DNA of 6,379 nucleotides from Actinomycetota bacterium (GTDB lineage: Bacteria > Actinomycetota > Humimicrobiia > Humimicrobiales > Humimicrobiaceae). This document shows, piece by piece, positions 1,396-6,199 of this stretch. Location of the stretch: positions 1-6,379 of the forward strand of contig JAHILC010000289.1 in the NCBI GenBank assembly GCA_018897225.1. Direction: 5' to 3'. The position numbers and the translations under genes were made by a program. Under the pieces are notes generated by a model, which worked only from the letters and a program-made list of their open reading frames with translations, searched no databases and was not told the DNA's origin. Each line of letters starts with the position of its first letter. The stretch's first letter is position 1.

Positions 1396-2634
1396 ATGAA
1401 CAATAAAATAATCATTGGTTTAACTGGACGATTTGGAGCAGGTTGTTCAGCAACGGCTCAATTATTAGAGGTAGGGAACCAATTTAAAAGAAATAGCTTA
1501 TCTACAGTATTAAAAGATTTGGCTAAAGAAGATAGTAAATTTCTAAAATTGCCTGAAAAATATAAGAGAAACTATTTGCAAAACTTAGGCGATGAATTAA
1601 GAAATAAAAATGGTCAAGAATATATAGCTAAAATTATCATCGATAAATTAAGGGAAGAAAATGACAGTAGAAATATCGTAATTGATGGTTTCAAAAATCC
1701 TGCAGAGGTCTGTCTATTCAGGGAGGAATTTTCTAATTTTTATTTATTTGCAATTGATGCTGAAACGGAAGCAAGACGTGAAAGAACTAAAGAAATTTAT
1801 GATAAAGATTTAGAATGCTTTAGAATTGATGACGTAAGAGACGAAGGAACGGACGAGGGGCCATTTTCAGGACAACAAGTAAAAGTTTGTATGAGGATTG
1901 CAGATATACTGGTAAATAGTGACGATCAATTTGTTTTTGAAGATGGCACAAAAAACAATCAGGCCATAGAAGAATATGGTCAAAAAATTAATGGTTATTT
2001 AAAACTTATAGAAAAACCGGGTAGCAGAACTCCAAGCTTGGATGAAATGTTTATGCATATAGCCTGCAGCGTTTCCTTAAGGTCATGTTGTTTAAAAAGA
2101 CAAGTAGGTGCAATTATAGTTAAAAAAGGAAAATCCTTAAATGAGGGTAACTATATTTTATCAACTGGCTGTAATAATGTTCCATATGGAGAAAAGTCCT
2201 GCATAATATGCTATAGGGATGAAAAAAAACAAGACAGTATAGATAAAATAAATTTTTGCAGTAATTGTGGTCAAGAAAATATTAGCAAAAACTCGACATG
2301 TAGTAAATGTGGAGAAAAATTGTTAAATAATTATCCCGGTAAATTATTAGATATTTGCAGAGCTGTCCATGCTGAAGAAGAAGCAATTCTCCAAGCTGCA
2401 AAATTGGGTATTTCTATTTCAGGAACTACGTTATATACATCAACGGATCCATGTTTATTATGCAGCAAAAAAATTATTAATTCAGGAATAAGTGATATAA
2501 TATATTTAGAATCATATCCAATGGTACAGGCTTTAGAAATGCTTGAGAACTGTAATGTCAAAAGACGAAAATTTGAAGGTGTGACATCAAGAGTCTATAA
2601 TAGGTTATTTTTAAAAGATATTGCAATTAATTAA
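1396..2634 (+). CDS. avcD: AvcD-like antiphage dCTP/dCMP deaminase (P-loop NTPase-deaminase fusion)
   Basis: This fusion matches the AvcD/antiphage dCTP deaminase architecture. That family converts dCTP and dCMP to dUTP and dUMP in the cytoplasm, starving phage replication of dC nucleotides. Residues 1 to about 200 resemble a nucleoside-monophosphate-kinase P-loop domain: GRFGAGCS at 11-18 (Cys where Walker A has Lys), then VIDGFKNPAEV and FYLFAIDAETEARRER, then GQQVKVCMRIADI. Residues about 216-395 are a zinc cytidine deaminase: HAE (H325, E327) and PCLLC (C353, C356) supply the zinc ligands and the proton shuttle. Between the first strands and HAE lies an insert with C269/C272 and a zinc ribbon C288xxC291, C302xxC305. 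At 412 residues it is shorter than V. cholerae AvcD as I recall it. An in-frame TAA at 1372-1374 excludes a start further upstream; the ATG has no clear Shine-Dalgarno. A zinc-ribbon gene follows 23 bases later. The alternative is an ordinary dCMP deaminase, which the P-loop fusion and the context make less likely. Confidence 0.85.
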   Translation: MNNKIIIGLTGRFGAGCSATAQLLEVGNQFKRNSLSTVLKDLAKEDSKFLKLPEKYKRNYLQNLGDELRNKNGQEYIAKIIIDKLREENDSRNIVIDGFKNPAEVCLFREEFSNFYLFAIDAETEARRERTKEIYDKDLECFRIDDVRDEGTDEGPFSGQQVKVCMRIADILVNSDDQFVFEDGTKNNQAIEEYGQKINGYLKLIEKPGSRTPSLDEMFMHIACSVSLRSCCLKRQVGAIIVKKGKSLNEGNYILSTGCNNVPYGEKSCIICYRDEKKQDSIDKINFCSNCGQENISKNSTCSKCGEKLLNNYPGKLLDICRAVHAEEEAILQAAKLGISISGTTLYTSTDPCLLCSKKIINSGISDIIYLESYPMVQALEMLENCNVKRRKFEGVTSRVYNRLFLKDIAIN

Positions 2635-2645
2635 TTTTATAATTT

Positions 2646-2653
2646 AGGAGGGG
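2646..2653 (+). promoter_or_regulatory. Strong ribosome binding site of the zinc-ribbon gene
   Basis: AGGAGGGG is a near-perfect Shine-Dalgarno, ending four bases before the ATG. It lies in the short gap after the deaminase stop. This contrasts with the deaminase itself, which has no obvious site, so the small protein may be made in excess over it. Confidence 0.75.
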
Positions 2654-2657
2654 AATA

Positions 2658-2846
2658 ATGCAAAGGTGTCCAATATGCAAAAGATTTAATGTTGAATACG
2701 ATTCTAATATTGGGACAGAAAAATGTTTATGGAAGGATTGCCAGTGGGTTAATAATGACCATGAGAACTTAGAGGATAAAGAATATGAGTGTAATTTTAA
2801 GAAATTTAGAGATTCTATAAAATATAAAACTACCATTTTAACATAG
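2658..2846 (+). CDS. Small zinc-ribbon protein downstream of the AvcD-like deaminase
   Basis: A 62-residue protein that I do not recognise by name. It opens with CPIC (C4, C7) and continues with C23 and C28 (CLWKDC), a CX2C-X15-CX4C arrangement that should bind one zinc as a compact ribbon. The rest is polar and acidic, then basic (NDHENLEDKEYE...FKKFRDS). There is no signal peptide or membrane segment, so it should be cytoplasmic. The gene begins 23 bases after the deaminase stop, on the same strand, behind a very strong ribosome binding site, so co-transcription is very likely. It ends at a TAG directly followed by another TAG. It could be an accessory, sensor or inhibitor of the deaminase, or an independent passenger; the sequence does not decide. 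That it is a real gene rests on the ribosome binding site and the paired cysteines. Confidence 0.72.
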   Translation: MQRCPICKRFNVEYDSNIGTEKCLWKDCQWVNNDHENLEDKEYECNFKKFRDSIKYKTTILT

Positions 2847-3149: not shown

Positions 3150-3722
3150 ATGACTGAAAAGAAAAAGAAGAATACAAAAAAGGAAATAAATATTTTAGAC
3201 AAGATTAATGCTGATGATGGATTAGCTATATTAAAAATGCTTGCCAAAGAAGATACGTCTCTGCTAAAAAGAATTGAAGATGCTGCATTAGAATATTTTA
3301 GTGAGGTGGAAGTTGAAGACATTGCTGATGAAGTATTTTATGAATTAGATAGCCTTGAAGTTGAAGATGTCTGGGATCAATCCGGTTCTACAAGATATGG
3401 ATATGTGGATCCAAATGAAAAAGCATGGGAAATGCTCGAAGATGCAATAGAATCATATTTGGTCGAGCTTAAGAAATATCAGGAACTTGAAATGGAGGAA
3501 GAGGCAAAAAAATATTGTATGGGTATATTAAAGGGTATCTATAAGTTTGAAAAAGAGTCAAAGAATGAGTTTAAAGACTGGGCCACAGATGCTCCCGGTG
3601 ATAATTTTGAAAGAGTCTTTGATAAATGGAAAGAACGCTGCACAAATCCAAATGATATAAAAGAAATGAAGGAATTTGTTAAGAAAAATTTCCCGGGCTG
3701 GGAAATTCCGGAAGATAAATGA
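3150..3722 (+). CDS. Hypothetical acidic helical protein, 190 residues
   Basis: Not a family I can name. The first 12 residues are very lysine-rich (TEKKKKNTKKE); the rest is strongly acidic and predicted helical. Visible blocks are ILDKINADDGLAILKMLAKED (15-35), a DIADEVFYELDSLEVEDVWDQSG stretch followed by TRYGYVDP, EEAKKYCMGILKGIYKFEKES and FKDWATDAPG, ending FVKKNFPGWEIPEDK. There is no signal peptide, membrane helix or obvious catalytic motif. The ATG follows GAAAGAGG at a suitable distance; an ATG at 3130 is out of frame and stops after eight codons. The coherent, biased composition and good ribosome binding site support a real gene. It precedes the SEC-C gene by about 100 bases with no terminator visible between, so they may be co-transcribed. 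A scaffold or nucleic-acid-mimic role is only a guess from its charge. Confidence 0.72.
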   Translation: MTEKKKKNTKKEINILDKINADDGLAILKMLAKEDTSLLKRIEDAALEYFSEVEVEDIADEVFYELDSLEVEDVWDQSGSTRYGYVDPNEKAWEMLEDAIESYLVELKKYQELEMEEEAKKYCMGILKGIYKFEKESKNEFKDWATDAPGDNFERVFDKWKERCTNPNDIKEMKEFVKKNFPGWEIPEDK

Positions 3723-3823: not shown

Positions 3824-4212
3824 ATGAATAAACTTATAGGTAGAAATGATCCCTGTCCCTGCGGGAGCGGAAAGAAATATAAGAAGTGCTGTTTTTTAAA
3901 GATACCGAGGACAATATTCTAGGGGAAAAACCTGAAAATGTTTCTGTCGAGGAATTTAAGGAAGCTGCAATAAAAGAATGGAATATTTTTTATGATATAT
4001 GGTTTCAGCAAGGGGAGGCATCCCTTGGTTATAAATCTCCTGCGGAAGCATTAATGAATGAAAGCGGAAAGCAAAGAGCTCTGGATTTAATAGATGGTAT
4101 TGAAAATGAGATATTGCGTACAAAAAAATTTCTGCATGGAGACGTTGAAAATAAAATAAAATATTTTAACGCGGATGAACTTAGGAAGAGGGTTAATATA
4201 AAAGTACTTTGA
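3824..4212 (+). CDS. SEC-C motif protein with ParS/DUF2384-like C-terminus, split by a -1 frameshift
   Basis: Translation starts at an ATG behind AGAGGGGAG. It encodes [18 protein letters not shown] at residues 6-23, a complete SEC-C zinc motif (C11, C13, C22, C23) as found at the SecA C-terminus and in many small proteins. The frame then ends at TAG 3920-3922, giving only 32 residues. The -1 frame continues from the T-run for 104 codons to TGA 4210-4212, so a shifted product would be 129 residues. Its C-terminal part has W60FQQ...[14 protein letters not shown], then [14 protein letters not shown] up to about residue 95. This resembles the W...P..L.GKTP.E.L...GR..V..L...IE pattern of the MbcA/ParS/Xre antitoxin (DUF2384) family. 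The two halves fit as one protein, so this is either programmed frameshifting at the heptamer or a recent one-base indel. A toxin-like fragment follows at once. The SEC-C assignment is certain; the DUF2384 resemblance is moderate. Confidence 0.75.
3892..3898 (+). promoter_or_regulatory. In-phase T TTT TTA slippery heptamer
   Basis: The codons read TGT TTT TTA AAG, so the heptamer T TTT TTA has exactly the X XXY YYZ phase needed for tandem -1 slippage. The next -1 codon, AAA, opens the rest of the protein. I see no convincing stimulatory hairpin in the following 40 bases, and the nearest purine-rich Shine-Dalgarno-like stretch upstream (GGAAAG) is about 18 bases away, further than the usual bacterial spacing. 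A six-T run is also a hotspot for indels and sequencing errors. Confidence 0.5.
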
Positions 4213-4436
4213 TTCTTAACATATATCATATAGTTTTTAAAGGAAGCATCTATTGTTCTTATAAGCTCATTATTTCTAAAGAAGCACATAACGACGTTGA
4301 TGATATTGTGCATTATATTGCAATAGAACTTTGTAATCCAACTGGTGCAACAGGTTTTCTTGATGGTGTGGAGAAAAGCTACCATACCGTTATAGATAAC
4401 CCACGCATGTATGGTTTTTGTAACGATTATAGGTAA
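4209..4436 (+). pseudogene. RelE/ParE-type toxin, truncated
   Basis: Residues 18-73 (YKLIISKEAHNDVDDIVHYI, then ELCNPTGATGFLDGVEKSYHTVIDNP, MYGFCND) match the N-terminal two thirds of the RelE/ParE toxin superfamily, which cleave ribosome-bound mRNA (RelE) or poison gyrase (ParE). A full protein is about 90-105 residues; this one stops at a TAA just after NDYR, before the final beta strands that carry key residues. Out-of-frame traces (LAQNR, then VIIMVS) follow, suggesting decay rather than a short natural form. The natural start should lie just before Tyr18, but no ATG/GTG/TTG is there. The TTG at 4209, overlapping the preceding TGA, merely opens the frame. It follows the SEC-C/ParS-like gene directly, so the two may once have been an antitoxin-toxin pair. 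Confidence 0.68.
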
Positions 4437-4563: not shown

Positions 4564-4971
4564 TCATTCTTCCTTTATTAAATAAGTCAAATATATTGGT
4601 CTGACTATTGGAATGTTTTTATACTTTTTTAGTTTTAAAAGATGCTTATCACCGGATACTATTAAACCGGCATCTCCAGAAACAGCACATTCAAGAACCC
4701 TATTATCTGATTCCCTTTCTTTTATAATATTAAGCTTAATTGCCGGTCTTAAATTTTCACTAATGTCTGACAGCCATCTTACGAATTTATCTATGTTATG
4801 TTCAGGCCATTTAAACTTTTCTCTTAATATTCTTACTGTTTCTGTTACTATTTCATCTGATGTGATAAGGATTATTTCATTTTTTAAAGCTATATCAAGA
4901 ATCTTTCCGGGTATGCCATTAAAAAGAAGCGCAGAAATATATACATTTGAATCAAAAACGATTCTAAGCAT
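4564..4971 (-). CDS. PIN-domain toxin of a type II toxin-antitoxin pair
   Basis: A complete 135-residue PIN-domain protein of the COG1569-like putative toxin family. PIN toxins are Mg2+-dependent RNases that cut tRNA, rRNA or mRNA when freed from the antitoxin. The acidic catalytic set is present: D7 in IVFDSNVYISALLF, E44 in DEIVTETVRIL, D89 in ESDNRVLECA and D108 in IVSGDKHLL. The order (FDSN near the start, SDN..LECA, GDKHL..L) and length are typical, so the enzyme should be active. The ATG lies 8 bases past the stop of the antitoxin gene; AAGAAAGG at the end of that gene is the nearest ribosome binding site, somewhat far, so translation is probably coupled. The stop codon overlaps a small AATGAT/ATCATT hairpin (4553-4568). 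The exact RNA target is unknown. Confidence 0.88.
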   Translation of the reverse strand: MLRIVFDSNVYISALLFNGIPGKILDIALKNEIILITSDEIVTETVRILREKFKWPEHNIDKFVRWLSDISENLRPAIKLNIIKERESDNRVLECAVSGDAGLIVSGDKHLLKLKKYKNIPIVRPIYLTYLIKEE

Positions 4972-4979
4972 TAAATTAT

Positions 4980-5237
4980 TTAAGACCTTTCTTCGTCTAA
5001 GATTTTAAAGAGTTCTTCTTCATCCTTTATCTTGAATCTTTCTGCTGTTTCTTTCCCAAAACTCAAAAGTTCTCTCCACTCTCTTTCTGCAAGCGACTCT
5101 TTATAGGTCCTAAACATCTCCTTAAATATCTCACTCCTGCTCTTGTCTTCAGTTTTAACCATATTATCCAGTTCCCGGGCTATTTCTGGAGATACAGACA
5201 GACTTAATATTTTACTTTTTCTACTCAAATTCATCAC
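4980..5237 (-). CDS. Ribbon-helix-helix (CopG-like) antitoxin partner of the PIN toxin
   Basis: An 84- or 85-residue protein with an N-terminal ribbon-helix-helix DNA-binding domain: beta strand KILSLSVSPEIARELDNMV, then the turn KTEDKSRSEIFKEMFRTY. An acidic, helical tail (ERFKIKDEEELFKILDEERS) should wrap and inhibit the toxin. It comes first in the operon and the PIN toxin follows after an 8-base gap, the usual antitoxin-toxin order. Either a GTG at 5237 or the adjacent ATG at 5234 can start it; the ATG is the likelier, with AGGTG only just upstream as a poor ribosome binding site. As in other RHH-type pairs it probably represses its own promoter, and repeats suited to this lie directly upstream. 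Confidence 0.87.
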   Translation of the reverse strand: MMNLSRKSKILSLSVSPEIARELDNMVKTEDKSRSEIFKEMFRTYKESLAEREWRELLSFGKETAERFKIKDEEELFKILDEERS

Positions 5238-5637: not shown

Positions 5638-5901
5638 TCATGCGCTTAATTCTTTTTTAATTCTTTCAGACAAAAATATTTTCATCAGAGACTGATATGG
5701 TACATCTCGCTTATTTGCCAGAAGTTTAATTTCTTCAAGCAAAGATTCAGGCAGCCTTAAAGAGATAGTTTTTACTGAAGGTTTTAATTCAGGAAAAACT
5801 ACTTTTTTTGCTTTTTTCCAGTCGACATATTCTAAAGAATCAGCCTTTGCCCAGAACTGCCTTTCTTTATCTTCATTTTCAAATTCAGGAATCTTTTTCA
5901 T
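5638..5901 (-). CDS. brnA: BrnA antitoxin
   Basis: An 87-residue antitoxin of the BrnA/CopG-antitoxin family, which neutralises BrnT and represses the brnTA promoter. The N-terminal part has the family signature KIPEFENEDKERQFWAKADS followed by YVDW and VVFPELKPS (residues 3-42). Then comes a ribbon-helix-helix domain: strand KTISLRLPESLLEEIKLLA (44-62) and second helix VPYQSLMKIFLSERI (67-81). The length is normal and the protein looks intact. The gene overlaps the 3' end of brnT by 17 bases, with AGGTG inside brnT as its ribosome binding site, so the two are co-translated. The toxin-first order is typical of brnTA and opposite to the neighbouring RHH/PIN operon. Confidence 0.92.
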   Translation of the reverse strand: MKKIPEFENEDKERQFWAKADSLEYVDWKKAKKVVFPELKPSVKTISLRLPESLLEEIKLLANKRDVPYQSLMKIFLSERIKKELSA

Positions 5902-6199
5902 AATTTATATACACCTGTCTTTCTTTCTTATTCATATCTCTTGCGGATATAATTCTTATTTGTTTATTACGGATTGTAAATACAATGTAAAGAAACCTGT
6001 TTGCATCAGTTTTTCCAAGTGCATAATATCTTGCCTCTTTCTGAGAATGCTTTAAATCTTCATAGGAGATAAGTGGAATATTTAAAAACGCCTGCTCACA
6101 CTCAGGAGAGCTGACATTGTGTGTTAGCAAGTTTTTATCTATATTGGCTTTATCCCACTCAAAACCTGTACATTTTTCAAGTTTCTTATAAATATCCAT
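5885..6199 (-). CDS. brnT: BrnT toxin (RelE-fold ribonuclease)
   Basis: A complete 104-residue BrnT, a RelE-like RNase toxin that blocks translation until bound by BrnA. Family landmarks are CTGFEWDKANIDKNLLTHNV (10-29), the A-x-x-x-x-x-N-x-P-L segment (37-43), KHSQKEARYYALGKT (50-64), LYIVFTIR (70-77) and the C-terminal IRIISARDMNKKERQVY (81-97) with its conserved Arg/Asp/Glu residues. All are present, so the toxin should be active. The MDIYKKLEKCTGFEWD beginning resembles other BrnT proteins of the longer type, supporting the ATG. No Shine-Dalgarno precedes it and the best promoter would start transcription only a few bases before the ATG, so it may be translated from an almost leaderless mRNA. 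brnA follows, overlapping. Confidence 0.92.
   Translation of the reverse strand: MDIYKKLEKCTGFEWDKANIDKNLLTHNVSSPECEQAFLNIPLISYEDLKHSQKEARYYALGKTDANRFLYIVFTIRNKQIRIISARDMNKKERQVYINYEKDS

Follow-up and report, generated by a model that had tools for sequence, protein, structure and literature searches.

Results

A deaminase gene followed by a zinc-ribbon gene

The window, by which we mean the whole stretch of DNA that was analysed, comprises 6,379 nt of contig JAHILC010000289.1 in assembly GCA_018897225.1 (G000:C223 in our genome set), from an uncultured bacterium taken to belong to the Actinomycetota, and the genome it belongs to is 1.66 Mb in size and 83% complete. It carries a gene for a deaminase resembling the anti-phage deoxycytidine triphosphate (dCTP) deaminase AvcD and, 23 bases after its stop and on the same strand, a gene for a 62-residue zinc-ribbon protein. 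This arrangement, noticed in an original prediction made on the window, was confirmed, and we show below that it recurs in distant bacteria. The features of the pair are:

1396..2634, + strand: AvcD-like deaminase gene, 412 aa, P-loop domain and zinc deaminase
1405..2013, + strand: N-terminal P-loop kinase-like domain, residues 4-206
2029..2631, + strand: C-terminal deaminase domain, residues 212-412
2257..2310, + strand: zinc ribbon lying within the deaminase domain, C288xxC291...C302xxC305
2368..2376, + strand: catalytic HAE motif, H325-E327 (H325 in 120/121 aligned rows)
2449..2463, + strand: zinc-binding PCLLC motif, C353 and C356 (each in 120/121 rows)
2646..2653, + strand: Shine-Dalgarno site AGGAGGGG ahead of the small gene, strong, with anti-Shine-Dalgarno pairing of -10.7 kcal/mol
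2658..2846, + strand: small partner gene, 62 aa
2667..2741, + strand: Cys4 ribbon of the small protein (C4, C7, C23, C28)
2769..2840, + strand: residues 38-61 of the small protein, a C-terminal helix in a structure model with confidence 50-61

The C-terminal domain of the deaminase is of the cytidine/deoxycytidylate type with the CDA fold, fused to the P-loop kinase-like domain, and the HAE and PCLLC motifs, the predicted catalytic and zinc sites, are both intact. In the Walker A motif, GRFGAGCS, a Cys occupies the position where Lys is usual; in an alignment of 121 rows (the query and 120 listed of 395 homologues) this residue 17 is C in 78 rows and K in 25. The sole match in the defence library PADLOC is dCTPase (5.4e-98), a profile for which no cut-off is stated, and the NCBIfam model NF041025 (anti-phage dCTP deaminase) matches over nearly the full length with 250.1 bits against a curated cut-off of 400, so that we class the protein as a relative or variant and not as an equivalog member. 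The AvcD-like identity given in the original prediction holds for the fused architecture and the PADLOC match and falls short at the NF041025 cut-off; judged by its sequence, the deaminase is related to AvcD.

A database search with the small protein as a single sequence returned one relative (95%), and a search with the alignment of the first relatives returned nine. Against 100 related genomes it gave matches in five at E <= 0.1, of which G000 itself and G028 (1.3e-20) are real and the remaining three lie at 0.05-0.08. It matched no PADLOC model and no NCBIfam model above cut-off, and the Pfam search found no enzyme domain in it. Its top structural neighbour is the N-terminal domain of MqsA, and the ribbon shows weak matches to nucleic-acid and polymerase ribbons (TFIIB, RPB9, C11). 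Of 10 family members, one matched TFS_arch (E 0.003) and one a TFIIB-type ribbon (E 0.006).

Recurrence and co-inheritance of the pair

A profile of the deaminase (A1) was run over six genome groups at E <= 1e-40 and found 16 deaminase-bearing genomes among 1147, a number that is no unbiased frequency, since five of the six groups were picked because one member was already known as a carrier. The matches were distributed as 1/334 in the phylum of an Omnitrophota metagenome-assembled genome (MAG), 4/147 in the phylum of MAG STD1_36, 2/9 in Schekmanbacteria, 4/396 in Actinomycetota, 2/14 in Coatesbacteria and 3/247 in the phylum of a Bryobacterales MAG. As a partner we counted any open reading frame (ORF) of 40-110 aa with the pattern CxxC-x10-24-Cx2-4C that starts no more than 100 nt from the upstream stop on the same strand. 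Such an ORF lies behind 11 of the 16 deaminases and behind 1 of 913 control genes, and with the limit tightened to 60 nt the figures are 9/16 and 1/913. The control DNA consisted of 79 loci on genome contigs together with 40 stretches taken from G000 and from seven partner genomes, with the deaminase genes removed; with these left in, the count is 3/931, two of the three being deaminases. At the deaminase loci, small ORFs cut by the contig edge were counted too; this admits G468, where no closed small ORF was found, and without such ORFs the count is 10/16.

The partner is present in G000, G028, G100, G512, G534, G468, G103, G593, G892, G695 and G715, that is, in two Actinomycetota families and in the phyla of Schekmanbacteria, Coatesbacteria and MAG STD1_36. 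It is absent from G101, G102, G964, G965 (a classical-type AvcD) and G167 (a short type without ribbon). The adjacency of deaminase and ribbon protein is hence a recurrent one, and the two-protein arrangement that the original prediction proposed is conserved beside other homologues. In G028, from the same family as G000, the small gene stands directly behind the C-terminal end of the deaminase, which is 80% identical over 94 residues, the remainder being lost at the contig end. The two weakest cases are G695 and G715 (one genus), where the small frame overlaps the deaminase end and has a GTG start common to both. Past the deaminase stop the two differ by 6, 4 and 13 substitutions at codon positions 1, 2 and 3, and their similarity stops at the small stop codon, with 32/150 bases identical beyond it (ungapped); the third-position bias and the end of similarity at the stop indicate that the small frame is probably coding. 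The deaminase of G593 (L143:1417-2719) is split over two frames, with the partner gene behind it open.

The distance matrices of deaminase ends and partners in 10 pairs are correlated (r 0.76, p 1e-4, 20000 permutations), a value to which host kinship contributes and which was obtained with G695 left out and one wrong residue in the row of G715. A tree built from 22 deaminase domains sets the four AvcDs of classical type, none of which has a partner, apart from the others (100/99), and the partner label changes 4 times against 7.7 for shuffled labels, 3 of 500 shuffles being as low.

Expression anatomy

Anti-Shine-Dalgarno pairing is stronger for the small gene than for the deaminase gene in 7 of 7 scored loci, which are those where both starts could be read, the deaminase starts being set by eye at the Met before the P-loop. 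The values (small gene and deaminase, kcal/mol) are -10.7 and -1.5 in G000, -9.3 and 0.6 in G100, -8.2 and 0.1 in G534, -11.6 and -6.0 in G512, -9.3 and -2.9 in G468, -10.2 and -2.9 in G103, and -7.4 and -3.1 in G593. Outside this count stand G028 and G892, where the deaminase start was not in the sequence analysed, G715, which was not scored, and G695, whose small start is uncertain and whose deaminase pairing is -16.1. Between positions 1150 and 3200 of the window no terminator-like site was found, and the intergenic gaps of the pairs are at most 60 nt or the genes overlap. Taken together, the stronger site of the small gene, the lack of a terminator and the short gaps or overlaps suggest a single transcript from which the small protein would be made in excess. 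A two-codon ORF (ATG AGA TGA, 1391-1399) overlaps the deaminase start codon in the window, where the Shine-Dalgarno site of the deaminase is weak.

The internal zinc ribbon of the deaminase

The original prediction singled out the ribbon built into the deaminase as an extra feature; that it is a peculiarity is not supported. Its cysteines are kept in 80 (C288), 80 (C291), 100 (C302) and 77 (C305) of the 121 aligned rows, and the ribbon is an ordinary feature of the clade that has been lost in the close relatives P0008 and P0009. Nor is it linked to the partner gene: G534, G695 and G715 have the partner and no ribbon, and G101, G102 and G964 have a ribbon-like Cys pattern and no partner. In the deaminase of G964 (L150:1459-2685) there are two tandem ribbon-like Cys clusters inside the deaminase domain.

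Upstream sequences and classical AvcD loci

AvcID is described as a type III toxin-antitoxin system consisting of the deaminase AvcD and an RNA antitoxin, AvcI (PMC10511110 and PMC12409362). According to the former, AvcI is a non-coding RNA of slightly less than 300 nt with a minimum of about 171 nt, which binds and inhibits AvcD and disappears once host transcription stops (PMC10511110). Before the deaminase gene of the window there is room for 172-235 nt, in which no Rfam match was found and whose fold is no better than that of shuffles (z +0.94). The previous ORF of at least 100 aa ends 40 nt (G468), 53 nt (G593) and 89 nt (G100) before the deaminase in three partner loci; five further loci leave 167-607 nt, and in G715 a frame of this kind overlaps the deaminase.

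None of five classical-type AvcD loci (L138, L139, L141, L140 and G965) has a Cys4 ORF within 100 nt downstream. The three annotated ones have a hypothetical ORF of 56-61 aa upstream (56, 60 and 61 aa), and such ORFs are present at 4 of 4 classical AvcD genes:

L138:2648-2818: upstream ORF
L139:705-887: upstream ORF
L141:2688-2873: upstream ORF
L140, frame from 854: upstream ORF

Their products end in basic residues and a C-terminal Trp (..KIRW, ..SLKW, ..KITW, ..KTDW), and it is possible that the AvcI locus, described as a non-coding RNA, codes for a conserved peptide too.

Phage copies of the ribbon protein

Scanning IMG/VR with the small protein gave full-length homologues on two contigs, L193 (81,342 bp) and L196 (69,856 bp), both with the ribbon and the C-terminal F-x-K-F-x-D-S-I stretch of the small protein:

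L193, 4001-4183: stand-alone ribbon homologue, 60 aa, 39% identical
L196, 4001-4180: stand-alone ribbon homologue, 59 aa, 41% identical

Neither record, each of which may be a fragment, contains a PF00383 deaminase at E <= 0.1, a search that was positive in 12/14 control genomes, and the L193 record has no A1 match at E <= 0.01. By eye, the L193 homologue lies near NrdD/NrdG-like genes; the L196 homologue lies just before a 5'-3' exonuclease gene. Phages that carry the regulator alone are what would be expected if the small protein is an inhibitor. There is a precedent in a phage-encoded antitoxin mimic reported against DarTG (PMC11481870); the toxin there is a different one, and mimicry by the phage ribbon proteins is only putative.

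Discussion

The explanation that we tentatively prefer, and to which we give somewhat less than an even chance, is that the ribbon protein is the antitoxin of the deaminase in a two-protein AvcD-like system. The conserved adjacency, the apparent excess of translation, the lack of space for an RNA in three loci and the phage copies together make it the most likely of the readings considered. The deaminase is predicted to drain dCTP and deoxycytidine monophosphate (dCMP), and the small protein, which would be in excess owing to its stronger ribosome-binding site, would bind the enzyme and hold it inactive. The trigger would be the loss of the small protein, taken to be short-lived, once a phage stops host gene expression; the released deaminase would then act on deoxycytidine nucleotides and starve phage DNA synthesis. 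Such a system would be the protein-antitoxin counterpart of AvcID, with the ribbon protein in the role of AvcI, and the stand-alone phage copies would be antitoxin mimics; inhibition, trigger and phage mimicry are what we infer here. A wider claim, that the AvcD defence has a second form, spread over several phyla, with a downstream zinc-ribbon protein instead of the RNA antitoxin, and that phages have captured this protein as a stand-alone antidote by which the deaminase stays off while they infect, is possible but distinctly more doubtful.

The pair shares with AvcID the fusion of a P-loop domain to a zinc deaminase, the HAE and PCxxC motifs and an adjacent small regulator expected in excess. 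It differs in that the classical AvcDs L138, L139, L140 and L141 are without the internal ribbon, in that the downstream ribbon protein here takes the place of the regulator, and in the identity, which is 27-30% among 25 listed of 76 plasmid rows. From NF041025 and the PADLOC dCTPase, which it matches over nearly the whole protein, the system departs by the score of 250 bits against the NF041025 cut-off of 400 and by a small protein that matches no PADLOC model and, above cut-off, no NCBIfam model. A small protein gene conserved beside a putative toxin gene is also what type II toxin-antitoxin systems have, and MqsRA has a zinc-containing antitoxin, MqsA, whose N-terminal domain is the top structural neighbour of the small protein and may share the fold of its zinc domain; there the toxin gene reportedly comes first and the antitoxin gene second. 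Clover is a further parallel, in which an effector that depletes nucleotides is kept in check through a second protein gene: CloA is an HD-type dGTPase, and CloB, a nucleotidyltransferase, produces an inhibitory nucleotide (PMC12265719). In our pair the partner is a 62-aa ribbon protein, and no enzyme domain was found in it. Membership in Clover itself was considered and rejected, as Pfam shows a deaminase in the pair but no domain of the HD dNTPase or nucleotidyltransferase type in either protein. Our literature search, the scope of which did not include the neighbour tables of the founding papers, found no pairing of an AvcD-type deaminase with a ribbon protein.

The strongest competitor, which we still regard as unlikely, is that the small protein acts as a positive subunit or senses infection: its ribbon would bind a nucleic acid or a protein made by the phage, or else the RNA polymerase of the host, and would thereby activate the deaminase. 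The pairing in 11/16 against 1/913 fits this equally well, and the likeness of the ribbon to nucleic-acid and polymerase ribbons speaks for it, but stand-alone phage homologues suit an inhibitor better, the stronger ribosome-binding site suits a protein made in excess, and homologues such as those in G101, G102 and G964 manage without a partner.

Since dCMP deaminases are regulated housekeeping enzymes, the pair could also be a nucleotide-salvage enzyme with its regulator and have nothing to do with defence, and the NF041025 score under the cut-off would agree with that. We find this improbable, because G000 has, apart from this gene, a shorter ORF resembling dCMP deaminases (G000:C131, open frame 156 aa), occurrence is rare and patchy (4/396 Actinomycetota genomes), the defence-library match is to dCTPase (5e-98), and the surroundings include toxin-antitoxin genes in the window and, in the L042 pair, an AAA_21 gene and a protein-kinase gene before the deaminase. 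Zinc ribbons often bind RNA, and with 172-235 nt available before the window gene the small protein might be a chaperone that helps an AvcI-like RNA to hold the deaminase; the 40-89 nt upstream in three partner loci, the lack of an Rfam match and the unremarkable fold make this quite improbable as well. That the small gene is an unrelated neighbour of a deaminase acting alone would agree with the known dCTP deaminases, which to our knowledge are single-gene systems in PADLOC and NCBIfam, but is contradicted by the pairing counts and the conservation across phyla, and we consider it very improbable.

How a cell that is not infected stays safe from its own deoxynucleotide-depleting defences is an open question, to which the answers so far are an RNA (AvcI) and a nucleotide signal (Clover). 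If our preferred reading of the ribbon protein as antitoxin is true, a protein regulator on the same enzyme as in AvcID would be a third answer, and one toxin could exchange an RNA antitoxin for a protein antitoxin. The gene pair is directly testable, and the two phage homologues are candidate counter-defence proteins.

Several other genes surround the pair in the window. About 300 bases downstream lies a 190-aa acidic protein (3150-3722) for which nothing above cut-off was found in Pfam or NCBIfam, nothing in PADLOC, and at best 0.007 in PHROGs. Upstream, on the minus strand, is a DUF4143 protein (207-1160), which seems to retain no more than the C-terminal portion of the AAA-DUF4143 layout usual for such proteins. 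The short frame at 3824 carries what is presumably a SEC-C motif, and it and the next ORF of 108 aa lie in different frames (3824-4212), as in a broken or frame-split gene. Further on lie the toxin-antitoxin genes, a ParE-like piece scoring under its cut-off (4209-4436) and, both on the minus strand, genes for PIN_3 and RHH proteins (4564-5237) and for BrnT and a CopG-type antitoxin (5638-6199).
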